Source: a virus. Taken from it: 26,342 nucleotides of DNA. The notes below the pieces were generated by a model, which was not told where the DNA came from, searched no databases, and worked only from the letters and a program-made list of their open reading frames with translations. The stretch covers positions 1 through 26,342 of the IMG/VR virus record IMGVR_UViG_3300009130_000116; one strand, given 5' to 3'. Shown here one piece after another: positions 1,920-25,810 of this stretch (positions are counted from its first letter, which is position 1; each line of letters starts with the position of its first letter). A program made the position numbers and the translations under genes.

Positions 1920-2267
1920 ATGAAAACCGAAGCACTTAAAAAGTTAATAAAAGAAGCAGTTAGAGAAGCAATACAAGAAGAATTAAAAGAGGTTTTATTA
2001 GAAGCAGTTAAAGCGCCTAAAGTTCAAACCCCACAACCAATTCAAGAAAGTAAAACTATTACTTCAACTACACCACCACCTGTATCACAAGCAGATAGGA
2101 GACAATCTTATTTAGATATTATTGGTGAAACAAAATTAAATTTAACAAGTAAAGACGCACAAACATTTAATCCAAGAGGTACAGTAGATACAACTTCCCC
2201 AAATGGTCAATTACCCGCAGGAGAAGTAGGAATGGATCAAATAATGGGATTAATGACAAATAGATAA
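1920..2267 (+). CDS. Small helical protein, probable tail assembly component
   Basis: This 115-residue protein starts with a strongly amphipathic, Lys/Glu-rich helix (residues 2-33, including LKKLIKEAVREA). A Pro/Thr/Gln-rich linker (33-58) follows, then a C-terminal part without a recognised fold (YLDIIGETKLNLTS, GEVGMDQIMGLM). No catalytic motif is visible. Its stop overlaps the start of gp25 (TAATG), so the two are probably translationally coupled, and its position suggests a baseplate or tail accessory role. The N-terminal helix resembles those at the starts of many genes in the 16.8-25.8 kb region. It contains IKE|A and LLE|A, which fit the T4 prohead-protease pattern (L/I)xE, although a capsid role would be odd for a gene inside the baseplate cluster. 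The start codon has no Shine-Dalgarno sequence. Confidence 0.75.
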   Translation: MKTEALKKLIKEAVREAIQEELKEVLLEAVKAPKVQTPQPIQESKTITSTTPPPVSQADRRQSYLDIIGETKLNLTSKDAQTFNPRGTVDTTSPNGQLPAGEVGMDQIMGLMTNR

Positions 2268-4533: not shown

Positions 4534-4542
4534 AATTAAATC

Positions 4543-5685
4543 ATGGCAGTTTACAAATTATTTCCATATAAAGACACAACCCTATATTCATTATACCCTG
4601 ATATGAATACAGGGATAGATGCTATTACTTCAATTACAAACTTAAATATAGCTATAGATACTCTCCCTCAAGTATCTAGATTTCTAACAGCATTTTCACA
4701 GGATGAAATTGAAAGTGTTATAAATGAAAAAATTAATGGGGCCCAATGGGATGTAGATTTAAAATCTTATATAGCAACAGCACAAGGAATAGTTGAATCA
4801 ACAGATTTAGAAGTATACCCCCTAGCTCAATCTTGGTATAATGGAACAGGAATGTTTTTAGATGTACCACAAACAACAGATGGGGCAGCATGGTATACTC
4901 CAAATTTTAAAGGATCAGTAGCTTGGTCTTCAAGTGGATTAGATGCATATAATAATAAGGTAACAGGATCCTATGATTCAAACTCAGTAGGAGCAGGAGG
5001 GGGATCTTGGTTATATGAAACAGGTAGTACAAGTTTTAGAGTAACTCAATCATTTGATACAAGATCTACAAAAGATTTAAGTATTAATGCTAAAGAAGTA
5101 GTATCACGTTGGTATAGTGGTTCTATGGATAACAATGGTTTTATTATAAAATGGGAAAACTCAGTAGAATTTAGTACAAGCACTCAAATCCAACCTGTAA
5201 TGCAATTTTATAGTGTTGACACTAATACAATATACCCTCCTGAATTAGAATTTAAATGGGATGATTATTCAAGTGTTTTAACAGGGTCAGCTACAGCAAG
5301 TATACTTACTACAACTAATATAGTTTCCTCATTAGCTGAAAACCCAGGAGAATTTTTACCTGAATCCGTTCATAGATTTAGATTTAATGTAGCAGATAAA
5401 TACCCAATTAGAGTTTGGACCACAGCTTCTCAATTTACAGGAGTAAGTTATTTACCAACTGCTTCATATTATGCTGTAAAAGATTTGGATACTAATGAAT
5501 TTGTTATTAATTTCGACACTACTTATACAAAATTAAGCTCGGATTCTCAAGGAAATTATCTTGATTTATATATGAATGGGTTAGAACCGGAAAGATATTA
5601 TAAGATTTTAGTAAAAACTACTATAAATGATTCTACAATGGTTTTAGATGATAGTTATTATTTTAAAGTTGTAAATGGATTTTAA
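4543..5685 (+). CDS. DNRLRE-like tail/baseplate structural protein
   Basis: This 380-residue protein begins with YKLFPYKDTTLYSLYPDMNTG. The pattern of a 'dead/active' strand followed by aromatic-Pro-Asp-Asn-Gly resembles DNRLRE-type beta domains, with a matching segment around residues 85-125 (LEVYPLAQSWYNGTG, then AWYTPNFKG). The rest is beta-rich and Ser/Thr/Gly-rich, typical of phage surface or fibre modules. It lies between gp6 and a coiled-coil protein in an unbroken baseplate operon, so a wedge-peripheral or fibre-attachment role is likely. It starts 9 bases after the gp6 stop; the next gene overlaps its stop (TAATG). The DNRLRE comparison is by eye only; I do not recognise a T4 counterpart. 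Confidence 0.75.
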   Translation: MAVYKLFPYKDTTLYSLYPDMNTGIDAITSITNLNIAIDTLPQVSRFLTAFSQDEIESVINEKINGAQWDVDLKSYIATAQGIVESTDLEVYPLAQSWYNGTGMFLDVPQTTDGAAWYTPNFKGSVAWSSSGLDAYNNKVTGSYDSNSVGAGGGSWLYETGSTSFRVTQSFDTRSTKDLSINAKEVVSRWYSGSMDNNGFIIKWENSVEFSTSTQIQPVMQFYSVDTNTIYPPELEFKWDDYSSVLTGSATASILTTTNIVSSLAENPGEFLPESVHRFRFNVADKYPIRVWTTASQFTGVSYLPTASYYAVKDLDTNEFVINFDTTYTKLSSDSQGNYLDLYMNGLEPERYYKILVKTTINDSTMVLDDSYYFKVVNGF

Positions 5686-6029
5686 TGGCAAGAGTAAATT
5701 TAAATAAAGGGGTTTTCAACAAAAAAGATTACGAAAAAACAATCAATACAAAATTTACCCAATTAGGAGTAAAATCTGTTCAAGAACAAATAGATGAACA
5801 GCCTACAATTGAGGAATTTTTTCAAATGTATAATGATCTTTTTTATCAAATCCCCGAAATAGGTAATGTAAATTCACATGCTTTTTTAGTTAAAACTAGT
5901 GGAGAATATATTAATTTTAATGAAAATGATGAATTAATAGAAGCACTTCAAAATGAGATAGCTCAATTAAGACAAGAACTTTTAGAAGCTCAACAACAAT
6001 CAGTTGAACCACAAACACCTCAATCATAA
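5685..6029 (+). CDS. Small coiled-coil baseplate-associated protein
   Basis: The 114-residue product has an N-terminal polar segment, a central helical region (residues 30-60, with many Gln, Glu and Phe), and a clear C-terminal heptad-like coiled coil (about residues 80-105, ELIEALQNEIAQLRQELLEA) ending in a Pro/Gln tail. It is bracketed by TAATG overlaps with both neighbours, so it is very probably co-translated with the 380- and 1938-residue tail proteins. A coiled coil of this kind could bind wedge proteins or trimerise a fibre adaptor. No homologue recognised; the function is inferred from position only. Confidence 0.75.
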   Translation: MARVNLNKGVFNKKDYEKTINTKFTQLGVKSVQEQIDEQPTIEEFFQMYNDLFYQIPEIGNVNSHAFLVKTSGEYINFNENDELIEALQNEIAQLRQELLEAQQQSVEPQTPQS

Positions 6030-11845: not shown

Positions 11846-11854
11846 AAAAATAAC

Positions 11855-11885
11855 GTGATAAAAAAATTAATAATACATATATTTA
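11855..11885 (+). promoter_or_regulatory. Candidate promoter for the tail-fibre genes
   Basis: In the 60-base gap after the 1938-residue gene, TATATTTA (11878-11885) is preceded by GTG at 11855-11857 with exactly 20 bases between, close to TTG-N19-21-TAnnTTTG. The extended element (TATATTTATAAC) resembles the one at 1899. The start codon at 11906 is 21 bases downstream, giving a short leader without a Shine-Dalgarno sequence. This is the first sizeable intergenic space after the baseplate operon, which suits a new transcription start. Confidence 0.45.
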
Positions 11886-11905
11886 TAACATATAATTAAA
11901 CACAA

Positions 11906-12568
11906 ATGGGATATTTAAACAATCAAGTTGTAACAGTTGATGCTATCTTAACGAAAAAAGGTAGAGAGTTACTAGCAAAAAATGATGGTTCTTTTAGAAT
12001 TACACAATTCGCATTAGCAGATGATGAAATAGATTACACACTTTATAATCCTAACCATGCTTCTGGTTCTGCTTTTTATGGTGAAGCAATTGAAAACATG
12101 CCTTTATTAGAAGCATTTCCAGATGAATCTCAAATCATGAAGTATAAATTAGCTACTCTACCAAGAGGTACAGCTAAATTACCTGTATTAGATTTAGGTT
12201 TTTCTGCAATAACATTAAAACAAGGAGCTTCACTAGCTATTACACCTGAAACATTAAATTACTTAGGTAATACTTCATTAAATGAAACTTCAGGTTACAC
12301 AGCTACAATAGCAGATGTTAGAACAATGTCTACTTTTAATGGAGTAGGTATTCAAAGCACAGCAGCAACTGAACAAAATACAACATCAACAACAACATTA
12401 GGTACAAACGTATCATCAACAGTAATAGGTTCTCAAATTAATTTAAGAGCAACTACAGTCAATACTTTATTTGGGTCTAATACTCAATTAAGTACTACAA
12501 TTACCTTTGTAGGTTTAGATAGTGGAGCTAGATTAACAGTACCAGTTACGATAACAAAAACAAATTAA
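11906..12568 (+). CDS. Tail/fibre structural protein
   Basis: The 220-residue protein begins with a helix-rich segment (NNQVVTVDAILTKKGRELLA, then FRITQFALADDEIDYTLYNP) of a kind I associate with conserved structural proteins in marine phages. A segment around residues 75-115 (MKYKLATLPRGTAKLPVLDL, then TPETLNYLG) follows. From about residue 120 on it is Thr/Ser/Asn-rich beta structure that looks like a small Ig-like or fibre module. No enzymatic motif is seen. It lies between the giant tail protein and two related fibre proteins, so a tail or fibre role is likely. The start is the first ATG after a candidate promoter, with an A-rich context and no Shine-Dalgarno sequence. Confidence 0.75.
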   Translation: MGYLNNQVVTVDAILTKKGRELLAKNDGSFRITQFALADDEIDYTLYNPNHASGSAFYGEAIENMPLLEAFPDESQIMKYKLATLPRGTAKLPVLDLGFSAITLKQGASLAITPETLNYLGNTSLNETSGYTATIADVRTMSTFNGVGIQSTAATEQNTTSTTTLGTNVSSTVIGSQINLRATTVNTLFGSNTQLSTTITFVGLDSGARLTVPVTITKTN

Positions 12569-12578
12569 TATATAAAAC

Positions 12579-13631
12579 ATGAGTTTTAAAAGATTAGACG
12601 CTGAAGATTTTGTAGTAAGTGCAGACGCAGTACAAGGAATAGCTTGGTCAACAGGAGCACCAACCTTAACATCTTTCTATACCTCCTCAGTACAAGCTGC
12701 AGGTACCTCAGGTAACTATTATTTAGCAGTATATCAAACTTCTTCTACACTTAGTGAAGCAGCCGTTCAATTTGATATAGCATATGGAAATAAGCATGGA
12801 TCAGGTAGTGAATATTTCAATTCATTATACCCAAGTAGAACACCTTCGTCTACAATTTATGGTCAATATAGATCCATGATTTTAGAAGATGAAAATGCCG
12901 TTTTTCTTACAGGTGTAGGAACAACAGGTCAAACTTCTTTATGTGGAACTACAGTAACCAGTAGTACAGCAGTAGAAATGGAAGATTTTTGGGTGATATC
13001 ACCTGACAGAGCAAGATATAAACAAAGTTTATTCCCAGGTACATTTAATTTAACTTTATCAGGTTCAGGAGGAGAATTAAATTTAACAGATAATTCAAAT
13101 GATGTAACTATACAAACATTTTTAGGTTCCTCCAGAGTATACCAAATTGTATCAGGATCAAATGGTTCAGGAATAACAGGAGGAGGATATACACCTGCTT
13201 CAGGTTCATATGGTTTATTCTTTCCAGACATAGCAACAATTTTATTAAATCCAACAGCTATATCATCTTCAATAAGTGTTACTTCAGACACTACCGCTGA
13301 TTTAACTAATGGAACTAATCAAGCTACTTTATTTGATTCTTTAGTATCTGGATCATCTTTTCAATTAAATTTTGAAGAAACAATAACATCAGATTATATA
13401 TTTGTTAGAGCTAGAAACTCAGAATTTAATTATTCAGAAAATCCATCATTTATATCAGGATCAACAGGTGAGGTAATTTATAGTAATTTTATAAACAATC
13501 CACAAGTTTACCCTACAACAATAGGTATGTATAATGATGCAAATGAATTAATGGCAGTAGCAAAATTATCAAGACCATTACTAAAAGATTTCACAAAAGA
13601 ATCATTAGTAAGGGTTAAATTAGATTTTTAG
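12579..13631 (+). CDS. Tail fibre-like protein A (shares C-terminal domain with next gene)
   Basis: This 350-residue protein is Ser/Thr/Gly-rich and mostly beta. The N-terminus starts SFKRLDAEDFVVSADAVQG, a pattern like the 'leader' of phage appendage proteins. The last 90 residues (SDYIFVRARNSEFNYSENPS, then TTIGMYNDANELMAVAKLSR, ending VRVKLDF) align clearly with the end of the next gene (EFVYSQNPSIISGS, then TTVGLYDNSNQLVAVGKLSQ, ending VNLDL). A shared C-terminus on different N-terminal parts suggests either a common attachment/trimerisation domain or duplication followed by divergence of the exposed part. It starts 10 bases after the previous stop. The role as a fibre or neck appendage is inferred from composition and position. 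Confidence 0.75.
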   Translation: MSFKRLDAEDFVVSADAVQGIAWSTGAPTLTSFYTSSVQAAGTSGNYYLAVYQTSSTLSEAAVQFDIAYGNKHGSGSEYFNSLYPSRTPSSTIYGQYRSMILEDENAVFLTGVGTTGQTSLCGTTVTSSTAVEMEDFWVISPDRARYKQSLFPGTFNLTLSGSGGELNLTDNSNDVTIQTFLGSSRVYQIVSGSNGSGITGGGYTPASGSYGLFFPDIATILLNPTAISSSISVTSDTTADLTNGTNQATLFDSLVSGSSFQLNFEETITSDYIFVRARNSEFNYSENPSFISGSTGEVIYSNFINNPQVYPTTIGMYNDANELMAVAKLSRPLLKDFTKESLVRVKLDF

Positions 13632-13636
13632 GATGA

Positions 13637-14542
13637 ATGAGTGTTTACAAGTCATTAACAACATCAGATGTAGTAGTAACTCCATTTAAAGTAAATAAAA
13701 GTTTTTATTTTCAGAGTGCAAGTGCTATTACTGCTTCAAATGTAGGTATAGATAGGTATTTTGGAACAAATTCCACTTCTTCCCTTTGGGTATCAGGATC
13801 TAATCCTACAGGTCAAATTGATATTCTAAACTCAGACTTAGTATATAATTCTATTAGACAATTATATTATACTAATTTTTTAAGTGGATCTAATGGTTCC
13901 CCCGCTAAAACAGCCTCATTTAATCCTGATGGAACAATAACAGCTGAAGGTGGAGCATATCAACCTATGTATGATAATTATTTAACTAATACTTTAGATG
14001 CAAATAGAACTTTCCCAACTGGATCTGGAGATGTTATAGGAATAATGTCTATACCCTCAAATTTATTTGGAGAATATATTAAACCTGGAACTTTTAGGTG
14101 GAAAGTTGGAGTTTTAGATGTAACAGATGATGGAGAAGGGGGATTATTTTATGGTGGAGTAAAAATAGGAGATATAATTTATGAACATGGTATTGCTATT
14201 TTATCAGATTGGGCTGAAAGTAGAATATCAGATATGGTAACTTTATCCACTATTACTTGTTCTTTTGAAAGCACAATGACAATATATGAATCACAATATA
14301 AATGTACTTTTAACCCAAACGAATTTGTTTATTCCCAAAACCCTTCAATTATATCTGGGAGTTGTGAAAATAAAGAAGGGAAATTATACGATTTTGCAAC
14401 AGGTTCATATTTTGAACCATACATAACCACAGTAGGGTTATATGATAACTCAAATCAATTAGTAGCTGTAGGAAAATTATCTCAACCCCTACAAAGTTCA
14501 AATGTTACTGACACTACTATATTGGTTAACTTAGACTTATAA
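13637..14542 (+). CDS. Tail fibre-like protein B (paralogous C-terminus)
   Basis: The 301-residue product starts with a conserved-looking segment (SVYKSLTTSDVVVTPFKVNK, then FYFQSASAITASNVGIDRYF). The middle has a compact beta domain with IKPGTFRWKVGVLDVTDDGE and GVKIGDIIYEHGIAILSDW. Its C-terminal 90 residues are paralogous to those of the preceding gene, but here there are several Cys residues (ITCSF, YKCTF, GSCEN) absent from the other copy. It begins 5 bases after the preceding stop, with a weak AGGA just upstream. It probably assembles in the same appendage as its neighbour; it ends the structural module. Confidence 0.75.
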   Translation: MSVYKSLTTSDVVVTPFKVNKSFYFQSASAITASNVGIDRYFGTNSTSSLWVSGSNPTGQIDILNSDLVYNSIRQLYYTNFLSGSNGSPAKTASFNPDGTITAEGGAYQPMYDNYLTNTLDANRTFPTGSGDVIGIMSIPSNLFGEYIKPGTFRWKVGVLDVTDDGEGGLFYGGVKIGDIIYEHGIAILSDWAESRISDMVTLSTITCSFESTMTIYESQYKCTFNPNEFVYSQNPSIISGSCENKEGKLYDFATGSYFEPYITTVGLYDNSNQLVAVGKLSQPLQSSNVTDTTILVNLDL

Positions 14543-16780: not shown

Positions 16781-17578
16781 ATGATTAAATTAGTTGATTT
16801 GTTAAGAGAAGTTCAAGGTAAACCAAAAGCAATTATTTTAGCTGGAGCCCCTGGATCAGGTAAAGGTTCTATTCTAAAGGATTTGGATTTATCTAGTTTA
16901 AAAATACTTAATCTAGATGATACGATAGCAGCTTTATCTAAAATAGAGGGTTTTACTCTAAATCAAAAAGCAGCAGATGCTGAAGATAGAAGTAAATTCA
17001 TGAAAGCAATGCAAGTTGCTTCTAAAAAATTAAAAAACAAACAAATACCACAAGCCATAGCAAATCGCGAATCATTTATACTAGATGGTACAGCAGCATC
17101 CAAAAATCAGACAATTAAATTGCTAGATCAGCTCAAACAAGCAGGATATGACGTTCTTATGTTATATGTTTATACTGACCTGGAAACGTCGCTAAAACGC
17201 AACCAAGAAAGATTTGAAAAATCAGGTGGAAAAGATAGAAGTTTATTACCTGGTGCCATATTAGGCACATGGAAAGATGTAACTAAAAACTTTGGTTTAT
17301 ATAAAGGTATGTTTAATAATTTTGTTTCTGTAGCAAATACAGGCGATTCTGAAACAATGAAAAATATAGAAAACATATTAAAAACATATGTAGATCCTTT
17401 TAAAGTTAAAGATGGTAAACCTAAAACAGATAAAGAATTAGCAAGGTCTAAGGCACAAAAAGATGATTTAAATAAAGAAATCCAAAACATTTTACAATCA
17501 GACCAAGTACAAAACATAATTAATTCCTCAGTTTCAAAAGAAGAAGCACAAGGTACAATAAATGCATTTTTAAAATGA
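16781..17578 (+). CDS. P-loop kinase, zeta-toxin-like
   Basis: The 265-residue protein has a Walker A loop GAPGSGKGS at residues 22-30 preceded by a beta strand (KAIILA), a conserved LDD at 45-47 (likely catalytic or substrate-binding acidic residues), a second strand FILDGTA (D102), and an Arg-rich lid (R140, R144, R153; KDRSLLPGAI then TWKDVTKNF). This is the order of zeta-toxin, AAA_33 and small-molecule kinase families. A P-loop protein that phosphorylates a nucleotide, sugar-nucleotide or polynucleotide end is likely; the substrate is unknown. No antitoxin-like partner is seen. The first 11 residues (MIKLVDLLREV) form a separate amphipathic helix ending in LRE|V, a possible capsid-targeting peptide. 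Its stop overlaps the next gene (ATGA). Confidence 0.82.
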   Translation: MIKLVDLLREVQGKPKAIILAGAPGSGKGSILKDLDLSSLKILNLDDTIAALSKIEGFTLNQKAADAEDRSKFMKAMQVASKKLKNKQIPQAIANRESFILDGTAASKNQTIKLLDQLKQAGYDVLMLYVYTDLETSLKRNQERFEKSGGKDRSLLPGAILGTWKDVTKNFGLYKGMFNNFVSVANTGDSETMKNIENILKTYVDPFKVKDGKPKTDKELARSKAQKDDLNKEIQNILQSDQVQNIINSSVSKEEAQGTINAFLK

Positions 17579-18747
17579 ATGGGTTAAGTGATTTTTTAAT
17601 AGAGAGTATTTTAAATGAAGAAACTGAAAGAGCAGTAGCTTTATTTGGGGGAGGGTTTAAACCTCCTACAAAAGGCCATTTAGAAGTAGTTAATCAAGGT
17701 CTAAAAAACAATCCTGAAGTATCTGAAGTAAAAATATTAGTTGGTGGGGGCAAACGAAATGGCTTCACCCAAGACCAATCAGTAAAAATTTGGAATTTAT
17801 ATAATGACATAGGTTTTATAGATAAACCTGCTACAATCATCCCAGTAAGTTCTCCTTTCACATACTACAAAGAATATTTAAAAGAACATCCAGATGATAA
17901 GGTATATGTTTTTATAGGATCAAGACCAGGAGAAGAAAAAGATCAATTTGATGTTAATCAAAGATCAGAATTTGTAAAAAAATATAGTGATAACGTAATC
18001 CCAGTAGAAGTAGCTACCACAGGAGGTGTAAGTGGAACTAAAGCAAGAGAATTATTTAAAACTGATTTAGATGGTTTTAGAAATATGTTTCCTGAAAATT
18101 TATTAGATCAAGATTTTGATAAAATAGTAGATATATTAAATAATAAAAAAGAAAAATCTAGTAAAGTAACATCTAATAAAACAGAACCACTTAAACCTAT
18201 AAATGAAAATGCCACTTATTCTAACAATATAAACTATAAAAAATATATTAAAGATTTAACAACTCATATGTTAAACAAGGGCATGAACCTTACTCCACTA
18301 CCTAAAGTTATATTTAAAAACGGAGATAAAGAAAATGCTGAAAATTTCTTTGGAAAAACAGCTTACTACCAACCAGACACAATGGAAATTGTATTATATA
18401 CAGAAGGTAGACATCCAAAAGACATAGTTAGATCATTTGCACATGAAATGATCCACCATAGACAAAATTTAGAGGGTACATTAGGTGATATTAATACTAC
18501 GAATACTCAAGAGGATGACCATTTAACAGCTATAGAAGCTGAAGCATATCAAGATGGTAATTTAGCATTTAGAGGTTATACAGATACAGTATTAAATGAA
18601 AAGAAAAACAAAGACCCCTTTGGTCTAAACCAATTTGCAAGAGAGCTAATAGGAGATGATTCCACAGAAGAAAATGTTAATGAACATTTGGCTCCCCAAA
18701 AGGAAGTTCGTATATTTAACCCAAACTGTAATTGTGATAAAACTTAA
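17575..18747 (+). CDS. Fusion of nucleotidyltransferase and HExxH metalloprotease
   Basis: Two different domains are joined in 390 residues. Residues 18-190 are an HIGH-type nucleotidyltransferase: the phosphate-binding loop GGGFKPPTKGH at 25-35 (T/HxGH) and the C-terminal VSGTKAR at 152-158 (the SxTxxR-like motif of NadD/CoaD enzymes). After a Lys/Asn-rich linker (190-215) comes a zincin-like domain: HEMIH at 290-294 with a downstream EAEAYQDGN (E321/E323), the likely third zinc ligand. The end carries a small Cys cluster (NCNCD). The N-terminus (LSDFLIESILNEE) has two (L/I)xE sites resembling capsid-targeting processing sites. It overlaps the kinase stop by ATGA, and its own 3' end overlaps the promoter and start of the phosphatase gene. 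Domain calls are firm; substrates are unknown. Confidence 0.85.
   Translation: MNGLSDFLIESILNEETERAVALFGGGFKPPTKGHLEVVNQGLKNNPEVSEVKILVGGGKRNGFTQDQSVKIWNLYNDIGFIDKPATIIPVSSPFTYYKEYLKEHPDDKVYVFIGSRPGEEKDQFDVNQRSEFVKKYSDNVIPVEVATTGGVSGTKARELFKTDLDGFRNMFPENLLDQDFDKIVDILNNKKEKSSKVTSNKTEPLKPINENATYSNNINYKKYIKDLTTHMLNKGMNLTPLPKVIFKNGDKENAENFFGKTAYYQPDTMEIVLYTEGRHPKDIVRSFAHEMIHHRQNLEGTLGDINTTNTQEDDHLTAIEAEAYQDGNLAFRGYTDTVLNEKKNKDPFGLNQFARELIGDDSTEENVNEHLAPQKEVRIFNPNCNCDKT
18688..18718 (+). promoter_or_regulatory. Candidate promoter inside the fusion gene, for the HAD phosphatase
   Basis: TTG at 18688-18690, a 20-base spacer and TATATTTA at 18711-18718 (within GTTCGTATATTTAAC) lie in the 3' end of the fusion gene, 15 bases before the GTG at 18734. 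The spacing is the same as at 16744 and 25876, and TTCGTATATT is shared with 15019 and 16763. Because it lies in coding sequence, chance is a bigger risk here. Confidence 0.45.
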
Positions 18748-19258
18748 AGAAATATACAACAGAATAATAGAAGAAATAACACCACCCAAATACACATTAT
18801 ATTGTGATATGGATGGTGTATTAGTAGACTTTGAAAAAAGATTCGAAAAATATTCAGGTGGTCTTTCCCCCAATGAATATAGAGATAAATACGATTTAAA
18901 TGCCTTTTGGAAACTAGTAGATGGTGAAGGAGTTGGTTTTTGGGTTGGAATGCCTTGGATGCCTGATGGAGAACAATTATATAATTACATAAAACCTAAC
19001 TTATATTCATTACTATCTTCACCTTCATTTGATAATAGTTCAAGATTAGGAAAAAGATTATGGGTTAAAAAACATATTCCTGGTACTAAATTAATTTTAG
19101 CAGCTAGAAAAAACAAACAAGACTACGCAGAAGAAAATGCAATACTTATTGATGATCTTAAGCCAACCATTGATGAATGGAACGCTAAGGGAGGCATAGG
19201 AATCCTACACACCTCAGCTGAATCAACTATAAAACAGCTAAAAGAGTTAGGATTATAA
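18734..19258 (+). CDS. HAD-superfamily 5'(3')-nucleotidase-like phosphatase
   Basis: With the GTG at 18734 as start, the protein is 174 residues. Motif I is DMDGVLVDF with D25 and D27; LLSSPS followed by RLGKRLWVKKHI is the motif II region; K in RKNKQDYA fits motif III; and LIDDLKPTIDEW gives D140/D141 for motif IV. This is the order of the NT5C/phage 5'-nucleotidase group, which removes phosphate from (deoxy)nucleoside monophosphates. An ATG at 18656 would add 26 residues that look like an out-of-frame shadow of the upstream gene. Starting at GTG gives MIKLKEIYNRIIEE, a helical N-terminus like those of the neighbouring genes. It overlaps the fusion gene by 14 bases. A nucleotide-salvage role is likely. 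Confidence 0.82.
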   Translation: MIKLKEIYNRIIEEITPPKYTLYCDMDGVLVDFEKRFEKYSGGLSPNEYRDKYDLNAFWKLVDGEGVGFWVGMPWMPDGEQLYNYIKPNLYSLLSSPSFDNSSRLGKRLWVKKHIPGTKLILAARKNKQDYAEENAILIDDLKPTIDEWNAKGGIGILHTSAESTIKQLKELGL

Positions 19259-19277
19259 GTTTAACTAAATAATAATT

Positions 19278-19433
19278 ATGAACAAAATTAAATCAATTGT
19301 AAACTCATCATGGTTTAAAGCGGCAGCTGCAGGTGCAGTTGGAGTATTTCTTTTAATAGACAAAGATGTATTATACGCAGGTATAGCATTTGGTATTGGT
19401 ATTAGAGAATTTTTACTAGCTTTTAAAAACTAA
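19278..19433 (+). CDS. Small membrane protein (51 residues)
   Basis: An ATG-to-TAA frame of 51 codons fills most of the gap between the phosphatase and the zinc-ribbon gene. The product has two hydrophobic stretches: WFKAAAAGAVGVFLLI (about residues 12-27) and VLYAGIAFGIGIREFLLAF (about 31-49), separated by a short DKD turn, so a two-pass hairpin membrane protein is plausible. The N-terminus is basic (NKIK). Size and topology would fit a small holin-like or membrane-modifying protein, but there is no endolysin next to it and no family is recognised. It is followed 5 bases later by another small gene. Judged real because of good composition, tight packing and lack of competing frames. Confidence 0.65.
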   Translation: MNKIKSIVNSSWFKAAAAGAVGVFLLIDKDVLYAGIAFGIGIREFLLAFKN

Positions 19434-19438
19434 AAAGC

Positions 19439-19576
19439 ATGGCCAGAAATAAAGCATTAGGTAATGGGAATCTAAATGGTAAAAAAAGAAAAAGACCAGG
19501 TAGACATTCCAAAAAAACCTCCAAACTTAAGTCTTCAATTAATTATAAAAAGAAATATAGAGGACAAGGGAAATGA
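19439..19576 (+). CDS. Very basic small protein (45 residues)
   Basis: This 45-codon frame starts with ATG five bases after the preceding stop and ends in a TGA overlapping the next gene (ATGA), which supports it as a real gene. The product is highly charged, about one third Lys/Arg, with GKKRKRPGRHSKKTS and a C-terminus NYKKKYRGQGK. I recall short basic proteins of the form GRHSKK...YKKKYRGQGK in marine phage genomes, but cannot verify. A nucleic-acid-binding role (packaging or nucleoprotein structure) is plausible from charge; nothing else is visible. Confidence 0.65.
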   Translation: MARNKALGNGNLNGKKRKRPGRHSKKTSKLKSSINYKKKYRGQGK

Positions 19577-20145
19577 AAGATAATATCCTAAAAAAAGAAT
19601 TCAATAAAAAAGACGTTGAACGTTTACGTAACTTGGTTAAAGGAAAATCAAGTGAACGTACGAGTCAAGGTATAGGTTATACTAAAAAAGAAGAATTCCA
19701 TAAAGAAGGAGATATCTGGGAAGAAAATGGCCGAAAATGGACTATAAGGGACGGTGTAAAAGAAAATATTACAAAATTAGATAAATTTAAAAAAACAGCC
19801 GTCCCTTTATTTTGCCCTGAATGTAATAAAATAATGAATAATCAGTTAGATCCCCATTATTTCAAAGCCCACGGAGCTTGTCTAAATTGTGTTAAGAAAA
19901 AAGAAACTAAACTTAAAACAGAAGGCAAATGGGAAAATCATATTAAGGAAACTCATAATAAAGAAATAGATAAAACTATAGAAGAATATACCCAATTCAT
20001 GAAAATGAAAATGAATGAAAGTAATGATGGGTTTGTGACAGAATCAGGCGAAGTTGAAAAATGGGATGGTGGAATTAATATAGAAAGAGCTGAAGAGGCT
20101 CTTCAAGAAGGTATAAAATACTTAGAAGGTCTTAAGAAAAAATAA
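19573..20145 (+). CDS. Zinc-ribbon protein of unknown function
   Basis: The 190-residue protein has a short, very basic N-terminal helix, a conserved-looking segment EGDIWEENGRKWTIRDG (46-61) then ENITKLDKFKK, and a four-Cys zinc site: C81, C84 in CPECNK and C103, C106 in CLNC, with H100 between. The second half is helical and acidic (EAL..GIKYLEGLKK at the end). The IWEENGRKWTI plus zinc ribbon layout is one I associate with a conserved hypothetical of T4-like marine phages. The start overlaps the small basic gene (ATGA), and a GAGG lies upstream. A binding role (DNA or protein) is likely; no enzymatic residues are seen. Confidence 0.75.
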   Translation: MKDNILKKEFNKKDVERLRNLVKGKSSERTSQGIGYTKKEEFHKEGDIWEENGRKWTIRDGVKENITKLDKFKKTAVPLFCPECNKIMNNQLDPHYFKAHGACLNCVKKKETKLKTEGKWENHIKETHNKEIDKTIEEYTQFMKMKMNESNDGFVTESGEVEKWDGGINIERAEEALQEGIKYLEGLKKK

Positions 20146-20171
20146 TACCATAATTTTTCTATTTTTCCCCA

Positions 20172-20180
20172 ATATTTATA
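20172..20180 (+). promoter_or_regulatory. AT-rich box ATATTTATA in intergenic gap
   Basis: AATATTTATA lies in the 97-base gap before the gene at 20243, matching the core of the elements at 1899, 11878 and 16767 except for the first base. There is no TTG at the -33 distance, so it is a weaker candidate. If used, the leader would be about 60 bases. Confidence 0.25.
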
Positions 20181-20242
20181 ATAGTACAAAAGGGTTGTTT
20201 CCAATAAAAGTAAATTAAAAATAAAACTTTTAACAAAAACAA

Positions 20243-20557
20243 ATGGAAAACGAAATATTAATGAGTATCCTAACGGCTATAACAAGTGCATTAGGTATTA
20301 AAGAAATCTGGTTAATCTGGAAGAAAAGAGTTGAGATAAACGAAAAAAGACGTACTAAAGATGCTAATTTAAAAGATAAATTAATGTCTGAAGTTATTCT
20401 AGATTTAAAAGAAAAAATAGAAGAATTAGAAGCAAAAATTGATGAATTAATTGAAGAAAATACAATGCTAAGAGAAAAATTAGCTCGTATGGAAGAAAGA
20501 TTAATGATGTCTGCAGCTAAAAATTCTAATAATAAAAGAGCTAAAAAAGAAGACTAA
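20243..20557 (+). CDS. Membrane-anchored coiled-coil protein
   Basis: The 104-residue product begins with a hydrophobic helix (ILMSILTAITSALGIKEIWLIW, about residues 5-26), followed by a basic stretch (KKRVEINEKRRTK) and then a long coiled coil (about residues 45-90) with repeating Leu/Ile heptads (LKEKIEELEAKIDELIEENT). The end is a basic tail (NNKRAKKED). The layout matches a membrane-anchored, cytoplasmic coiled-coil protein; spanin-like or host-modification roles cannot be decided. No signal-peptidase site or lipobox is seen. Preceded by an intergenic gap and followed 17 bases later by a helical gene. Confidence 0.7.
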   Translation: MENEILMSILTAITSALGIKEIWLIWKKRVEINEKRRTKDANLKDKLMSEVILDLKEKIEELEAKIDELIEENTMLREKLARMEERLMMSAAKNSNNKRAKKED

Positions 20558-20574
20558 ATAAAAAAATAAAGATT

Positions 20575-20916
20575 ATGAGTGAATTTAATGCACGTAAATG
20601 GTTTAAAAATCAATACCTAGAAGAAGGTATGAGCCCTGAAGAATGGGAAGCCGCTAAAGAAGCAGAACGTTTAGAAGATCATCCAGAAAAAGAAAAAATC
20701 AAAGCTATTCAAGCTTTAATGGCTAAAGAAAAAAGTTTAAATGAAATTAGCAGAGACGCTTATAACAGAATGGAAGGTTTAGCTAATGAAAGACATCTTA
20801 ACGAACTAAAAGATTTAATAATGATATTAGGTGAAGAATGGGTAGAAGAAGGGTTTGAAAGTATAGATGTAGCAGGTTATTTAGAATATTTAGTTTATCA
20901 ACTAGTAAAAGACTAA
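20575..20916 (+). CDS. Small helical protein with possible processing site
   Basis: The 113-residue protein is almost wholly helical and acidic. The N-terminus MSEFNARKWFKNQYLEEG aligns by pattern with that of the next gene (MNEFDLRNFLYNNTLLKEE): M-x-EF-x-x-R-x-(W/F), then L-x-E. LEE|G at residues 15-18 fits the prohead-protease cleavage rule (L/I)xE|(A/G). The C-terminus (IDVAGYLEYLVYQLVKD) is a hydrophobic helix. The family is not recognised. The shared start with its neighbour suggests a common targeting or assembly signal. Confidence 0.7.
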   Translation: MSEFNARKWFKNQYLEEGMSPEEWEAAKEAERLEDHPEKEKIKAIQALMAKEKSLNEISRDAYNRMEGLANERHLNELKDLIMILGEEWVEEGFESIDVAGYLEYLVYQLVKD

Positions 20917-20955
20917 AAAAACCGCATAGATAACAACTCCCCACATATTTATCGA

Positions 20956-20963
20956 TATATTTA
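20956..20963 (+). promoter_or_regulatory. TATATTTA box upstream of the acidic protein gene
   Basis: An exact TATATTTA (20956-20963) in the 69-base gap before the ATG at 20986; a second related box (ATATTTATC) lies at 20945-20953. No TTG is present 19-21 bases upstream, so only half of the expected promoter is visible. Confidence 0.3.
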
Positions 20964-20985
20964 AATATTTTTAAAAACAAAAAAA

Positions 20986-21582
20986 ATGAACGAATTCGAT
21001 TTAAGAAATTTTCTTTATAATAATACTTTATTAAAAGAAGAAGAAAAAGAAGTATCTGACAAAGCTCGTAGAGAAGCTGAAGAAGAAGGATACGAAGACG
21101 GATATGATGATGCTGTTGAAGATGCTAAAAAAGCATTAGATGGTATCAAAGATGAATCCGAAGAAGAAAAAGACGAGAAAAAAGAAGTTAAAGAAGCAGA
21201 AGTAACTGAAACTACAAAACTTACTAAAGAAGGTCTTAGAAACATGATCAAAGAAAAAATCACTTCTATTTTAGCTGAAGACTCTATTGAAGAACAAGAA
21301 GATGTTGAAGTTGAAGATGAAGAAGATGTAGATGTTGACGTTGAAAAAGATGTTAATATAGATGTTGAAGATGAAGTAGATATAGATGATGAATCAGTAG
21401 AATCTGATATTGAAGTTAAAACTGAAGTACCAGGTGAAGATGCTGATACAGCAGCTGTATTAGGTCTTTTAACTAAAGCTCAAGAAGAAGCTGTAGCAAT
21501 GGGTGATGAAGTACTAATGGATCAAATTGGTAATACAATTACTTATTTCACAAGAAAACACGTTGTTAAAGCATCAGCGTAA
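20986..21582 (+). CDS. Highly acidic protein with prohead-core-like features
   Basis: This 198-residue protein has a leader (MNEFDLRNFLYNN, then LLKE|E at 15-18), a segment ARREAEEEGYEDGYDD (27-42), an acidic linker, a second helix KEGLRNMIKEKITSILAE (81-98), an extreme Asp/Glu/Val stretch (100-140), and a conserved-looking C-terminal domain (AAVLGLLTKAQEEAVAMGDE, then DQIGNTITYFTRKHV, 156-193). I associate that last domain with conserved phage hypotheticals. The acidic middle and the (L/I)xE sites are like T4 prohead scaffold or core proteins, which gp21 cuts. AEEEGYEDG is shared with the gene at 25274, and the Asp/Val repeat with the end of the gene at 22381. Function is inferred only. Confidence 0.75.
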   Translation: MNEFDLRNFLYNNTLLKEEEKEVSDKARREAEEEGYEDGYDDAVEDAKKALDGIKDESEEEKDEKKEVKEAEVTETTKLTKEGLRNMIKEKITSILAEDSIEEQEDVEVEDEEDVDVDVEKDVNIDVEDEVDIDDESVESDIEVKTEVPGEDADTAAVLGLLTKAQEEAVAMGDEVLMDQIGNTITYFTRKHVVKASA

Positions 21583-21615
21583 GGTTAGTTATTAAAGTAT
21601 TTAAATTAAATTGTT

Positions 21616-21786
21616 ATGAATTCGAATGAAATCTATATGAAAATGGCCGAGTTATGGACTGAGATGTCTTTAGAACACTCAAAACCAAGTAAAGCAGCAC
21701 ATGGCCGAGCAAGAAGTGCCGCTACAAAAATTAAAAAACTGATAGCAGAATACAAAAGAGCATCAGTAGCTGAAGATAAAGCTTAA
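21616..21786 (+). CDS. Histone H1-like protein (Hc1 type), 56 residues
   Basis: The frame (ATG at 21616, TAA ending at 21786) gives a 56-residue protein. Its second half, SKAAHGRARSAATKIKKL then AEYKRASVAEDKA, is the signature of Hc1-type histone-H1-like proteins of Bacteroidota (pattern KAAG.RAR.A...I.KL..E.RK.S). Such proteins are 55-60 residues, helical and basic, and bind or compact DNA. The first half (NEIYMKMAELWTEMSLEHSK) is the usual amphipathic helix. It lies in the 208-base gap between the acidic protein and a TTG-started gene. In a phage it could help order packaged DNA or compact the host nucleoid. The family match is by eye but specific. Confidence 0.8.
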   Translation: MNSNEIYMKMAELWTEMSLEHSKPSKAAHGRARSAATKIKKLIAEYKRASVAEDKA

Positions 21787-21790
21787 TAAG

Positions 21791-22381
21791 TTGAAAAAAT
21801 CAGAGTTAAAAAAATATATAAAAGAAGCTCTAACTCCAGATGAAGCAACCAAAGTAGATTCCAAATATAAGGACATCTACTCAGGTATGCTTAGAGACAA
21901 CCCCCTCAAACTTAAAAAATACAACAACCCAGATGCAGTAGCATATGGTAGGGCTATTAAATTAGTTCAAAAAGAATCAAAATTAGCCAAAGAATTTTCT
22001 TTAGACGAACGTTTAACTTCAATAGTAAAAGAAGTTTATTCTGAAAAACAAAGAAAATGGGCATGTGCTCAAGATGATCCTAAATTTGATGAAATGTGCA
22101 AAGACACAGCCATCTCAAAAAAGAAAACTATGGAAAATACAAGACTACAAGAATTAATTAAATCTGCTTTAAAAGGACCAGTTACAGAAGAAACCCCAGT
22201 AGATGAAGATGTTGTTAAAGGTTCAAATATCAAAAAAGTAGGAGACGATTGGAGAGTATTATCTGGTAAAACAGGTAAAATGTGGAAAGCTAAATATGAT
22301 ACTAAAGAAGATGCTGAAGCAGCATTAAGAGGATATTTTGCAAATCTATCAGAACGTATTCTTAGAGAAATTAAAGGATAA
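21791..22381 (+). CDS. Two-part protein with repeated N-terminal-like helix (TTG start)
   Basis: From the TTG at 21791 the protein has 196 residues; the next ATG in frame would remove the first 32. The TTG start gives KKSELKKYIKEALTPDE, matching the helical leaders of the neighbours with IKE|A at 10-13. Residues 75-112 contain SEKQRKWACAQ then DEMCKDTAISKK, a phage motif in which a Lys-Gln-Arg segment precedes Cys residues. At M114 a second leader-like helix begins (ENTRLQELIKSALKGPV), followed by a compact C-terminal domain (IKKVGDDWRVLSGKTGKMWK, then TKEDAEAALRGYFA). It therefore looks like two leader-plus-domain units fused. Start choice is moderately sure; functions are unknown. The stop overlaps the next gene (TAATG). 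Confidence 0.7.
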   Translation: MKKSELKKYIKEALTPDEATKVDSKYKDIYSGMLRDNPLKLKKYNNPDAVAYGRAIKLVQKESKLAKEFSLDERLTSIVKEVYSEKQRKWACAQDDPKFDEMCKDTAISKKKTMENTRLQELIKSALKGPVTEETPVDEDVVKGSNIKKVGDDWRVLSGKTGKMWKAKYDTKEDAEAALRGYFANLSERILREIKG

Positions 22382-22848
22382 TGACAAAATCAGAGTTCAA
22401 AGAGCGAATTAGAGGTTTAGCCTTTGAAGTCATCAAAGACAGAAAAAAAGCTGAAATAGCAGCTGTCGAATACGATGAGCTAACGAAATTCCCTGAGCTT
22501 AAAGAAATTATAATATCTCTACTAACAGCGGACTTTGATCCATTTTTAGGAGGTATAGACTGGGTAGCACCAAGACCCACAACATTCAGAATCAACTTAA
22601 GAAACGACCAAGAATTTTACCTTATATGGATGGGTAGAAGTTGGATAGCACAAGTTGAAGGTAAAAAATACTATTTATTAAATCTTCCTGAAGAAGAACG
22701 TGCAGTTGAAGCAATTGCTCGTATATTAAGATATGGAGCCCCTGAAAGTGAAGACTCAGCTACAGTAGATGCTGATGAAGATATAGATACAGGTGGAGAT
22801 GAAGAAATAGATGTGGATATAGATGACACAGTAGATGTAGAAATATAA
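22381..22848 (+). CDS. Conserved-looking phage protein with acidic tail
   Basis: This 155-residue protein starts with a helical segment (TKSEFKERIRGLAFEVIKD) resembling the neighbours' leaders, although no clean (L/I)xE site is present. The middle (residues 40-120) is a folded alpha/beta domain with many aromatic residues (FDPFLGGIDWVAPRPTTFR, then EFYLIWMGRSWIAQVEGKKY). The last 30 residues are an Asp/Glu/Val repeat (DEDIDTGGDEEIDVDIDDTV), like the acidic stretch of the gene at 20986. It overlaps the preceding stop (TAATG) and is followed by the nuclease-like gene 3 bases later. No function recognised; a virion-associated or assembly role is possible. Confidence 0.72.
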   Translation: MTKSEFKERIRGLAFEVIKDRKKAEIAAVEYDELTKFPELKEIIISLLTADFDPFLGGIDWVAPRPTTFRINLRNDQEFYLIWMGRSWIAQVEGKKYYLLNLPEEERAVEAIARILRYGAPESEDSATVDADEDIDTGGDEEIDVDIDDTVDVEI

Positions 22849-22851
22849 GTT

Positions 22852-23952
22852 ATGGATATACTAGATAAATTTTTAAAACAGTATTCATATAAATTCGATA
22901 AAGGATATCCTGATTTAGAAAATCCTAAGGATAAAGAAATGTTATTTGAATTAGCTTTTGGATTAACTGAACAAGAAGAGGAGGAGGAAAAGCTAGAAGA
23001 TAAATTAATAAAAATTATCCGTTCAAGTAAATTAAGTGATGATGAGTTAAATGCTTATATTAAATCTATTAGTAATAGAGGATTTAAAGGGGACATAACT
23101 AAAATTCTAACTAATAAAGGATATACATCAGATTCATTTAAAGTTGGTGAAAAAGCAATGGATTATATTATTGATAAAATAACAGATTCAGAAGCTAAAG
23201 AATTCCTTCAATATAAACCCAAAACCTTTAAAAATACTCCTGATAAAGGAAATTTATCCAAAGTAACAGGATTATCTAACCAATTAGTACAAGATTTAAT
23301 TAATATAGAACCAGGTGCAGATGCAGGGGGTTCTTCTATTGGTAAAGGAGAATTATTTTTAGCATTAGCCTTTAGTGATATTGATAATAGAGGGGGTGGT
23401 GGTGATTTAAATTACAATGGAAAAAATTTAGAAGTAAAAGGGACAGGTGGTAGATTAGGACAACAAGCAGGAAGAGGTAGTGATTTTGATTATTTATCGT
23501 TTTTAGGAGAAAAATATTTAGAAGGAGAAGATTTAGAAGAATTTCTAAACGATCCCCAAAATAAAATTATAAATGTTTCTATAAAAAATCTTTATGATAA
23601 AGCTACTGCTAAAGGTGCTAATTCTGCTTCTGTAATTAAAGATATACAAAAATCCTTAGATAGTATTTTCTTTAATAAAGGATTAGCTAAAAAATATTTT
23701 AATAGTCCTACAGATTTTAAGGATTTAGCAGAAATGAAATTAAAACTAACTAAATTAAATGCAGAAGCTTATGCTCAAAAAACAAATGTAGGAGCATTTT
23801 TATTTATGAATTCTAAAACAGGTGATTATGTTTTAGTAGATATTGAAAATTTAGAAGATTCCATTGATGCAGGTTTATTTGGAACTATAGTTAAAAATCC
23901 AATTAGTGGTTATCAATGGAATAACCCACACCCTAATATGGTAATAAAATAA
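22852..23952 (+). CDS. PD-(D/E)XK nuclease-like protein
   Basis: In this 366-residue protein, residues 160-205 carry a restriction-endonuclease-type core: E167 in GKGELFLAL, D185 in GGGGDLNYNG and E194-x-K196 in NLEVKGTGG. This D-x8-E-x-K spacing with a preceding Glu is the classic PD-(D/E)XK arrangement. The N-terminal 130 residues are acidic and helical (EQEEEEEKLEDKL, then LSDDELNAYIK). After the core come helices and an end with VGAFLFMNSKTGDYVLVDI and GYQWNNPHPNMV. Enzymatic activity is plausible but untested; it could act on host or competitor DNA, or be a structural relic. It is unrelated in sequence to the RecB-like nuclease at 15959. The promoter-proximal context is operon-like. Confidence 0.75.
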   Translation: MDILDKFLKQYSYKFDKGYPDLENPKDKEMLFELAFGLTEQEEEEEKLEDKLIKIIRSSKLSDDELNAYIKSISNRGFKGDITKILTNKGYTSDSFKVGEKAMDYIIDKITDSEAKEFLQYKPKTFKNTPDKGNLSKVTGLSNQLVQDLINIEPGADAGGSSIGKGELFLALAFSDIDNRGGGGDLNYNGKNLEVKGTGGRLGQQAGRGSDFDYLSFLGEKYLEGEDLEEFLNDPQNKIINVSIKNLYDKATAKGANSASVIKDIQKSLDSIFFNKGLAKKYFNSPTDFKDLAEMKLKLTKLNAEAYAQKTNVGAFLFMNSKTGDYVLVDIENLEDSIDAGLFGTIVKNPISGYQWNNPHPNMVIK

Positions 23953-23954
23953 AT

Positions 23955-23964
23955 AATATTTATA
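23955..23964 (+). promoter_or_regulatory. AATATTTATA box adjacent to a start codon
   Basis: AATATTTATA occupies most of the 15-base gap between the nuclease-like gene and the ATG at 23968, only 3 bases before that start. It matches the core of the other boxes, and the arrangement (box, T/C-rich bases, ATG) copies that at 16767-16781. No -33 TTG is visible, so it may be a translation-start context rather than a promoter. Confidence 0.25.
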
Positions 23965-23967
23965 TCC

Positions 23968-25023
23968 ATGACACGACTAAGATCACTAATAAAAGAAGTA
24001 TTATCAACACCACCAAAGAAAAAAGACTGTAATTGTGGTTGTGGTGGATGTGATAAAAAAGCACCTATCATAACAGAAGGTAGAATTAAAAAAGCAATAT
24101 CAGAAGGCTTAACCTACCACGTTGAAAACAAAATACCATTACACGAATCAGTATACAGAATAGGATCAGAAAAACATTTTGCTTTAATAAACGAAGCTAG
24201 AAAATTATGGGTACGTGGATTAATAGATGTATCTGAAGATGATCAAGCAATATTAGAAACACATTTAGGTAATTTTGGAATGTATGAAGGTGAAAAAGTA
24301 CCTTTAGATTTACCTATGATAGACGAAGGTTTTAAAGATTATTTAGGATACAGCGACCATACAAGAAGTGATAGTGGTTTAAACGTAATACCAAAAGACC
24401 AAATACACGCTAACAAATTATCAGATGCCATTGAAGACTCAGGCATGTACGCTGAATGGAACACTAGAGAAGGTTATTTCTTCTTCCCAGAAGAAGAAGA
24501 TGGATACGATCAACTAGAAATGGATATTCAAGATTTAATGGATGAAAATAATATTCAAGGTTATATTGAAGGTGTATTTGAAGAATCATTAAATGAAATC
24601 CATAAACTACTTAGACAATCTAAACTATCATCTGAAGAATATCAAAAAGCTAAAAAATTAAAAGGATTTAATGCAGACGACTATACATTTAGTTCAGATA
24701 ATAATTTATATGTTAAAAAAGAATCATTAGACGAAGCTGAATTCAAAGGTAAAGACGTAGAATTAAACAAACCAAAACGAGGCGGATCCAAAGCATATTA
24801 CGTATATGTTAGAGACCCAAAAACTAAAAAAATTAAAAAAGTTTCATTTGGTTCAGGTGGTTTAAGAGCTAAAATAAAAAACAAAGAAGCTAGAAACGCA
24901 TTCGCAGCTAGACATAACTGCAAAAATAAAAAAGACAGAACTAAAGCAGGATACTGGTCATGTAATCTACCTAGATATGCTGATCAATTAGGTTTAGGAG
25001 CAAATATGAATACATTTTGGTAG
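23968..25023 (+). CDS. Multi-domain phage protein with Cys cluster and C-terminal basic domain
   Basis: The 351-residue protein starts with TRLRSLIKEVLSTPP, a leader-like helix with IKE|V at residues 8-11, then a tight Cys cluster (C21, C23, C25, C28 in CNCGCGGC). Residues 36-100 contain a second leader-like segment (GRIKKAISEGLTYHV) and a helical domain; residues 115-205 are an acidic alpha/beta region (YFFFPEEEDGYDQLEMDIQD). From about residue 265 comes a basic domain (YYVYVRDPKTKKIKKVSFGS, then RNAFAARHNCKN, AGYWSCNLPRYAD), a unit I recall at the end of several phage proteins. The Cys cluster could bind a metal. The overall function is unknown; the modular layout with leaders fits the rest of this region. 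Confidence 0.72.
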   Translation: MTRLRSLIKEVLSTPPKKKDCNCGCGGCDKKAPIITEGRIKKAISEGLTYHVENKIPLHESVYRIGSEKHFALINEARKLWVRGLIDVSEDDQAILETHLGNFGMYEGEKVPLDLPMIDEGFKDYLGYSDHTRSDSGLNVIPKDQIHANKLSDAIEDSGMYAEWNTREGYFFFPEEEDGYDQLEMDIQDLMDENNIQGYIEGVFEESLNEIHKLLRQSKLSSEEYQKAKKLKGFNADDYTFSSDNNLYVKKESLDEAEFKGKDVELNKPKRGGSKAYYVYVRDPKTKKIKKVSFGSGGLRAKIKNKEARNAFAARHNCKNKKDRTKAGYWSCNLPRYADQLGLGANMNTFW

Positions 25024-25274
25024 AAAATAACCCTTATATTGATAAAAGCAATACAAGAACATTTTCAAAAAATGTAGACAAAATGTCTTTAATATGGCAC
25101 ACAGACCAAGAAGACAGAACAGTAACAGTATTAGAAGGCAAAGGATGGCAATTTCAGCGAGACAATGAGCTACCTTTGGCATTAACAGAAGGAGATAATA
25201 TATTTATACCAAAGGGCCAAATCCACAGGATTATAAAAGGTCAAACGGATTTAAAACTTAAAATAAAAAAGTAA
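25017..25274 (+). CDS. Small cupin protein (TTG start)
   Basis: The 85-residue protein is a single cupin barrel: LIWHTDQEDRTVTVLEGKGW (about 25-44) and GDNIFIPKGQIHRIIKG (59-75) are the two cupin motifs, with H28, E32 and H71 as possible metal ligands. The TTG at 25017 overlaps the previous gene by 7 bases. The only nearby ATG (25083) would remove NTRTFSKNVDK, which looks like part of the fold, so I prefer TTG. Small phage cupins of this form are common and have no settled function; sugar or nucleotide-sugar binding is a general possibility. Its stop overlaps the next start (TAATG). Confidence 0.8.
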   Translation: MVENNPYIDKSNTRTFSKNVDKMSLIWHTDQEDRTVTVLEGKGWQFQRDNELPLALTEGDNIFIPKGQIHRIIKGQTDLKLKIKK

Positions 25275-25810
25275 TGGAAAACTTAAACGAAGGTAAAAAA
25301 GCCAAAGGTTACATGGCCGAACTAGCCGAAATAGACAAGCAATCAGCATTAGTAGCATTAGAAGCTAAAATCAATAAATTAGCTGAAATGGCAGAAGCTA
25401 AAACTAACAGATTATCAATGGTTCATGAAGATGAAAATTTATCAGAACTTATCTCAAAACAAGCTGTTAAAGAAATGCAAAGATCTATAAAAGAAATTGA
25501 AAAATTAAAAGAAAAGTTATTAAAAGAATTCACTAAAAAAGGTGGAAAAATGACTGAAGTTATAGATGAAGATGCTCGTACGGATGCTGAAGAAGAAGGA
25601 TATGAAGATGGTATTAAGGATGAAAAAGAAGATGTAGAAGAAGCATGTAGTTCAACTTATGAAGAAGATGATATTGAAGAAGGAATTGAAGCTGAATTAG
25701 AGAAAAACAAAGGTGTAACTTGGGACGAAGCAGAACCAGCTCAAGTAACTAAAGAAAAAGGTTTAGCTAATGAAGAAGTTTCTAGATGGCAAGAACTAGC
25801 AGGACTTTAA
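25274..25810 (+). CDS. Acidic helical protein, possible scaffold/core component
   Basis: The 178-residue protein starts ENLNEGKK, with LNE|G at residues 4-7 fitting the prohead-protease rule. Residues 15-90 are a long helical region (ELAEIDKQSALVALEAKI, then SIKEIEKLKEKLLKEF). At 101-113 comes ARTDAEEEGYEDG, which repeats a segment of the gene at 20986, and the rest is acidic to the end (VSRWQELAGL). A scaffold, core or virion-internal protein is suggested by composition and the possible cleavage site. It is the last gene before a strong terminator, so it ends the operon. Confidence 0.72.
   Translation: MENLNEGKKAKGYMAELAEIDKQSALVALEAKINKLAEMAEAKTNRLSMVHEDENLSELISKQAVKEMQRSIKEIEKLKEKLLKEFTKKGGKMTEVIDEDARTDAEEEGYEDGIKDEKEDVEEACSSTYEEDDIEEGIEAELEKNKGVTWDEAEPAQVTKEKGLANEEVSRWQELAGL

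Follow-up and report, generated by a model that had tools for sequence, protein, structure and literature searches.

One question raised by the DNA analyzed here (IMG/VR virus record IMGVR_UViG_3300009130_000116, positions 1 to 26,342; this whole stretch of 26,342 nucleotides is called the window below) is why a series of genes between positions 16,781 and 25,810 (the interval), among them those for a kinase, a nucleotidyltransferase-peptidase fusion and a nucleotidase, should start with a short segment ending in (L/I)xE, the kind of site that is cut by the prohead protease gp21 of phage T4. We consider it probable, at about 80%, that this block is the cargo region of a T4-like phage, encoding proteins that are directed into the head by gp21-cut capsid-targeting propeptides and injected from it. 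An N-terminal propeptide of approximately 10–25 residues would attach the cargo to the scaffolding core as the prohead is assembled, active gp21 would then remove this leader by cutting after (L/I/V)xE, and the mature enzymes would stay inside the head and enter the host along with the DNA. While docking, cleavage, virion retention and injection in this phage are inferred, the basis of the proposal is that the leaders are modular and located at protein starts, are swapped between proteins, are conserved at the protein level, are linked to gp21, gp22 and gp23, and resemble the cut sites of T4.

Comparison of the window with Flavobacterium phage immuto and with metagenomic relatives yields four classes of leaders: A (core NFDLKKFLxE, in a fuller form M.NFDLKKFL(V/K)ENK), B (core KS(Q/E)LKxIIKE, in a fuller form MK(IT)KS(Q/E)LKxIIKEE), C (MIKLxxLL(K/R)E) and D (MQKLAGIITE, in a fuller form FxRMQKLAGIITE). 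When A and B were searched for as degenerate DNA patterns in 2.9 million viral contigs, with no start codon demanded, all 122 matches listed for A were located 2 or 3 residues past a start codon, and 140 of the 145 listed for B were located 2 or 4 residues past one, while for pattern D the median distance to the farthest upstream ATG is 11 residues. Bacterial and archaeal genomes totaling 257 Gb yield seven matches to pattern A, one of them N-terminal; the latter (L660) is on a contig of an uncultured metagenome-assembled genome, possibly a binned phage contig. Such placement, along with the swaps described below and the near absence of N-terminal matches from the bacterial and archaeal genomes, argues against chance or composition as the source of the pattern, through K/E/I/L-rich proteins of low GC content often beginning with such helices. 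The 15–22% background of the simple (L/I)xE rule and an enrichment in this one window that is not significant at a strict cut do point that way, and the weak cases (20575, 22381 and 25274) could still be due to chance, but for types A, B and D as classes this explanation is refuted, and we regard it as very improbable overall. Nor is the leader likely to be conserved as a nucleotide element, such as a translation enhancer, a recombination site or an RNA element, as its location at gene starts and its movement between genes might suggest. The 30-nucleotide core of A exists in at least 68 nucleotide versions in which synonymous codons vary freely (GAT/GAC 36/32, GAA/GAG 36/32), indicating that selection acts on the leader peptide and making a nucleotide element hardly credible.

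The proteins carrying these leaders are otherwise diverse. At E<1e-3, the bodies of those with leader A form at least 32 unrelated clusters, which merge when the cut-off is loosened. Those with leader B fall into at least 71 body clusters, and, for all four leader types and among the matches listed, 15 of 225 body clusters bear more than one leader type. One example is a body 80% identical over 145 amino acids that starts with MENFDLRKYLAEGKLLNE (type A) in one contig (L151) and with MKKSQLKQIIKEEILKVLNE (type B) in another (L373). Another example is the window kinase, whose relatives mostly possess a type C leader, with an A-like leader in one of them (L028). Swapping between unrelated bodies is the behavior that would be expected of interchangeable targeting signals. 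As a separate observation, one frame (L253; G021 36342-37934) joins homologues of the adjacent immuto leader-A genes gp077 and gp076, with both leaders retained.

The gene order of the window (primase, exonuclease, kinase, NMNAT, nucleotidase and further genes) recurs in longer contigs, which continue with terL, gp20, core genes, gp21, scaffold and gp23, similarly to immuto, the order in T4 being gp20-67-68-21-22-23. Thus the prohead protease that the sequence-only reading proposed to seek in the rest of the genome is found in relatives, as a T4-type gp21 downstream of the same block. In immuto, the nearest annotated isolate to the window (baseplate wedge 46% identical), the matches are to PF03420 for gp21, at 9e-35, and to PF07068 for gp23. 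A gp21 is encoded by all 7 leader-A contigs that are 100 kb or longer (11 of 14 regardless of length) and, with E<=2e-54, by 16 of 20 leader-B contigs, compared to 5 of 20 control contigs drawn by an arbitrary 15-mer and not lineage-matched, in which all matches are weaker (best E 3e-44). An HK97-type S78 protease, considered as an alternative, is absent from the leader-B contigs. Leader genes of type A, B or D adjoin gp21 or stand between it and the scaffold; those directly beside gp21 include an A-like gene in G007 and type A genes in G022 and in G027, and in many contigs a member of a large type B family follows gp21, either immediately or at a distance of one gene. Comparison of the N-termini with those of other substrates of the protease, also suggested by the earlier reading, gives a consistent picture, as all distinct N-termini of the relatives' gp21, gp22 and gp23 possess [LIV]xE in residues 3–22, while those of gp20, gp25, gp6 and PhoH do not. 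In immuto, 13 leader proteins are recognized among 224 by models trained without immuto, versus 1.1 expected; nine of their genes are within 17 kb before terL, one is beside baseplate gp25, and three are elsewhere. Six other long contigs (95–176 kb) have 5–16 strict leader matches each, many before terL, with secondary groups elsewhere. The 18–37 kb segment of immuto (L083) also contains genes for QueC, QueD, QueE, QueF and DpdA, pointing to 7-deazaguanine DNA modification.

This clustering bears on another explanation, that the modules at the N-termini serve as helices for docking to the tail or baseplate, a membrane or a host complex, with the (L/I)xE ending being incidental. The gene at 1920 and its immuto homologue, gp114, do adjoin baseplate gp25, and leaders B, C and D are amphipathic. 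In fact, the amphipathic helix that had been noted at seven of the named genes is a property of types B, C and D and of the T4 propeptides, not of type A or of gene 20986, whose helical moments are at the 16th and the 9th percentile, respectively. However, the leader genes cluster with those for gp21, scaffold and gp23, the gp21, gp22 and gp23 proteins bear such sites themselves, four unrelated leader sequences have only the E-ending site in common, and relatives of gene 1920 adjoin gp21 elsewhere. We therefore consider a different destination improbable.

Likeness to T4 extends to the putative cut sites. In two solved mature chains of T4 gp24, the first residue is number 11, MAKINELLRE having been removed, and this propeptide (MAKINELLRE↓S) resembles type C of the window (MIKLVDLLRE↓V), while T4 ipII and ipIII start with MKTYQEFIAEA, having the F(I/L)xE ending and the layout in common with type A. 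The T4 gp23 cut site, which we take to be FLTE↓A, aligns with VSE↓A, ISE↓A and VTE↓Q in the relatives. The propeptides of T4 gp24, gp23 and gp21 differ, though, in being carried by shell and protease proteins and not by cargo. For T4 IPIII, no solved relative was found. In the window, cuts are predicted at LLRE↓V in the kinase (16781), directly ahead of kinase strand 1 (PKAIILAGAPGSGKG), at LNE↓E in 17575, at IIE↓E or IEE↓I in the nucleotidase (18734), whose match to the phrog_2643 family starts at residue 19, past the leader, at IKE↓A in 21791 and at IKE↓V in 23968. Judging from their sequences, the kinase, the NMNAT-peptidase and the nucleotidase retain catalytic motifs, and the predicted cuts would fall just before the catalytic domains. 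In the 23968 family, [LIV]xE also precedes the conserved C-terminal domain in each of the 47 contexts, versus 7% and 30% in control windows, with a spacing of about 11 residues (exactly 11 in 37 cases), suggesting a second cut site, though the glutamate could instead belong to the fold. Overall, each checkable consequence that was tested in relatives held, supporting the reading of these N-termini as probable gp21-cut capsid-targeting leaders.

Another explanation is that the leader proteins are scaffold or core components, docked and then mostly degraded by gp21, serving in building the head rather than being delivered. Several internal LxE sites are present in the 20986 and 25274 proteins, both of which are acidic, type-B proteins are positioned between gp21 and the scaffold, and the conserved internal site of the 23968 family is cut-like. 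Among the leader proteins, 20986 and possibly 25274 may belong to the core scaffold and be degraded rather than delivered. As an explanation for the set, this is unlikely, as the kinase, the NMNAT-peptidase and the nucleotidase keep catalytic motifs, each with one leader right before the catalytic domain, and as the cargo is highly variable, unlike core proteins.

As to the motif itself, all seven N-termini named in the sequence-only reading are present at their starts (GTG for 18734, TTG for 21791), the LNEG noted near the start of 25274 is there as well, and the pattern is, as was claimed, lacking from the baseplate and fiber genes at 2267–13637 and present at 1920, whose start is type-B-like. 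The proposal that (L/I)xE near the start marks the island is partly confirmed, the motif being present at the named genes but weak as a count. The motif occurs by residue 20 in 22–41% of N-termini in related genomes versus 15–22% of internal windows, it is also found just outside the interval (MINE at 15036, RILE at 15959), and the bare regular expression also flags the exonuclease (85%) and terL (80%), so that the bare count was rejected as evidence. With leader models trained without the window and p values taken against internal windows, 7 of the 16 interval genes reach p<=0.011 (16781, 17575, 18734, 20986, 21791, 22381 and 23968), as does one of the 13 genes upstream of the interval (1920). 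In orthologues, [LI]xE is kept in 97% of the cases for the kinase (68 N-termini), 83% for the nucleotidase, 79% for NMNAT, 96% for 23968 and 100% for 20986; in the controls it is kept in 0% for gp25, gp6, gp20, PhoH and 19573 and in 4% for primase.

A number of points weigh against the cargo interpretation. At the strict cut, 5 of 16 genes inside the interval and 1 of 13 outside are positive, which is not significant (p=0.14). With this contrast and the high background of the motif, the count alone cannot carry the claim, whose weight rests instead on the leader sequence classes. The 26-kb window contains no gp21, being a fragment of the genome of an uncultured T4-like phage. Gene starts in the contigs were picked mechanically, by rule. 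Some NMNAT orthologues, mostly long fusions, are truly leaderless. Some immuto leader genes are far from the head cluster (at 1.8, 24.6 and 25.1 kb); T4 ipII and ipIII are likewise distant from it. The leaders are not homologous to the T4 capsid-targeting sequence (CTS; MKTYQEFIAEA). Naming of cargo domains failed, with Pfam recognizing 0 of 50 leader-A/B representatives and PHROGs almost none. Finally, no virion proteome for immuto or related phages was found in the openly searchable literature.

Table 1. Candidate leader genes of the window and their predicted leaders (leader p values are against internal windows).
Feature	Position	Strand	Remarks
P-loop kinase / zeta-toxin-like candidate cargo	16781..17578	+	PF06414 6e-18
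Leader of 16781, type C, MIKLVDLLRE	16781-16810	+	leader score p<0.001
NMNAT-like nucleotidyltransferase + HExxH metallopeptidase fusion	17575..18747	+	CTP_transf_like, DUF6782, both weak
Leader of 17575, MNGLSDFLIESILNE	17575-17619	+	leader p=0.008
5'(3')-deoxyribonucleotidase (HAD, DMDGV)	18734..19258	+	GTG start; phrog_2643 1e-24
Leader of 18734, MIKLKEIYNRIIEE	18734-18775	+	leader p=0.0008
Small acidic protein	20575..20916	+	N-terminus kept in 5 orthologues
Leader of 20575, MSEFNARKWFKNQYLEE	20575-20625	+	divergent, A-like layout; 20575 not recognized by leader models
Acidic protein with further internal LxE sites	20986..21582	+	cargo or degradable core protein
Leader of 20986, type A-like, MNEFDLRNFLYNNTLLKE	20986-21039	+	independent score p=0.010
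Protein without named function	21791..22381	+	TTG start; type B leader
Leader of 21791, type B, MKKSELKKYIKE	21791-21826	+	p<0.001, window left out of training
Protein with weak type-B-like start, MTKSEFKERI	22381..22848	+	p=0.011; doubtful member
Cargo candidate	23968..25023	+	phrog_7595 is the conserved C-terminal domain
Leader of 23968, MTRLRSLIKE	23968-23997	+	leader p=0.005
Second predicted cut of 23968, LDE↓A	codon 24733-24735	+	ahead of conserved C-terminal domain phrog_7595
Acidic coiled protein, start MENLNEG	25274..25810	+	marginal leader, p=0.04
Small protein outside the interval, type-B-like leader MKTEALKKLIKE	1920..2267, leader 1920-1955	+	p=0.002

The features in question are listed in Table 1. 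In 17575, the motifs TKGH and HEMIHH are read from the sequence, every Pfam match being below the curated cut-offs. Long single-chain fusions of the NMNAT-peptidase with the nucleotidase domain occur in relatives (L023, L028, L039, L045 and L055), the versions in L028, L039 and L045 being without a leader. The 20986 protein matches the hidden Markov model of class A at E=2.5e-7, though it is among the seeds of that same model, and proteins similar to its C-terminal part bear A, B or D leaders. Membership of 20575, 22381 and 25274 is doubtful: 22381 has no good N-terminal cut site, with [LI]xE in just 25% of its orthologues, and 25274 has an acidic segment in common with leader proteins. Not all interval genes are cargo, since 19573, 25017 and the genes for transmembrane proteins are without a leader in the window. 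One of these, at 25017-25274, encodes a small cupin-domain protein and overlaps the end of 23968. Another gene, at 22852-23952, is without a type A–D leader and has an invariant E, GD and ExK across 13 relatives, a PD-(D/E)XK-like pattern; the nuclease fold was rejected, as the AlphaFold model (pLDDT, the predicted local distance difference test score, of 78) has no convincing match in PDB. The model for 23968 is of low confidence (pLDDT 54), with only the leader helix at residues 2–13 and the low-confidence linker that follows being suggestive. A weak similarity (E 1e-5 to 1e-3; window 1920-2267 and L298, L318 and L355) links the product of gene 1920, or gp114, to a type-B protein whose gene comes just after gp21, between gp21 and scaffold, in other T4-like contigs.

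How does this putative system compare to known ones? The T4 internal proteins IPI, IPII, IPIII and Alt are said, by Mullaney and Black in 1996, to carry a capsid-targeting sequence. Leader docking, cutting by gp21, retention and injection are experimentally established for T4 internal proteins (PMC9026906, PMC9958956, PMC9391042). The similarities include a short N-terminal propeptide, an (I/L)xE cut site, one leader on unrelated bodies and a gp21-type protease with T4 head gene order, here in relatives. However, the leaders share no sequence homology with the T4 CTS, so that the system may work like the T4 internal proteins rather than being the same system; it has four interchangeable leader classes versus one in T4, and 5–16 strict-scoring leader genes per long contig, including those for the kinase, the NMNAT-like protein and the nucleotidase as putative virion proteins. 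Another example is the giant phage SPN3US, in which the gp245 prohead protease cuts head-protein propeptides, and proteins are ejected with the DNA (PMC10052503). It likewise relies on N-terminal propeptides suited to removal by a prohead protease, as predicted here, but its cleavage motif is AxE, its propeptides are mostly longer and it belongs to a different phage lineage. A third example is the polyvalent proteins, HExxH metallopeptidases fused to other catalytic domains, whose delivery along with the phage DNA has been predicted (Iyer et al., 2017, PMC5512222). The relatives of 17575 joining NMNAT, peptidase and nucleotidase in one chain may be similar to these, with weak Pfam matches. The terms NMNAT and zeta toxin are absent from that paper, and these leaders are, as far as searched, not described there.

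While the principle is already known from T4, what is new, as far as we found, is the set of leader classes, the exchange of one for another, and how broad the cargo of uncultured phages is. The leader strings were not found in the literature searched, and a tblastn search of 50,697 phage records finds leaders A and D only in immuto and sister records and one weak match for B, leader C not having been searched that way. We lean toward the view that uncultured T4-like phages possess a general head-import code, with at least four interchangeable leader classes and hundreds of cargo families, through which strain-specific enzymes and inhibitors, including NAD and nucleotide enzymes, would reach the host before phage gene expression. 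It may be conjectured that, in the earliest minutes of infection, the kinase, the NMNAT-like protein and the nucleotidase act on host nucleotide pools or on nucleotide-based defence. One cultured phage, immuto, would allow a direct test of the cargo proposal. If it is true, the injected cargo of uncultured phages would be readable straight from sequence, any protein with such a leader would be a candidate first-wave effector or anti-defence protein, and many orphan phage genes would gain a function class, offering a route to new counter-defence proteins.

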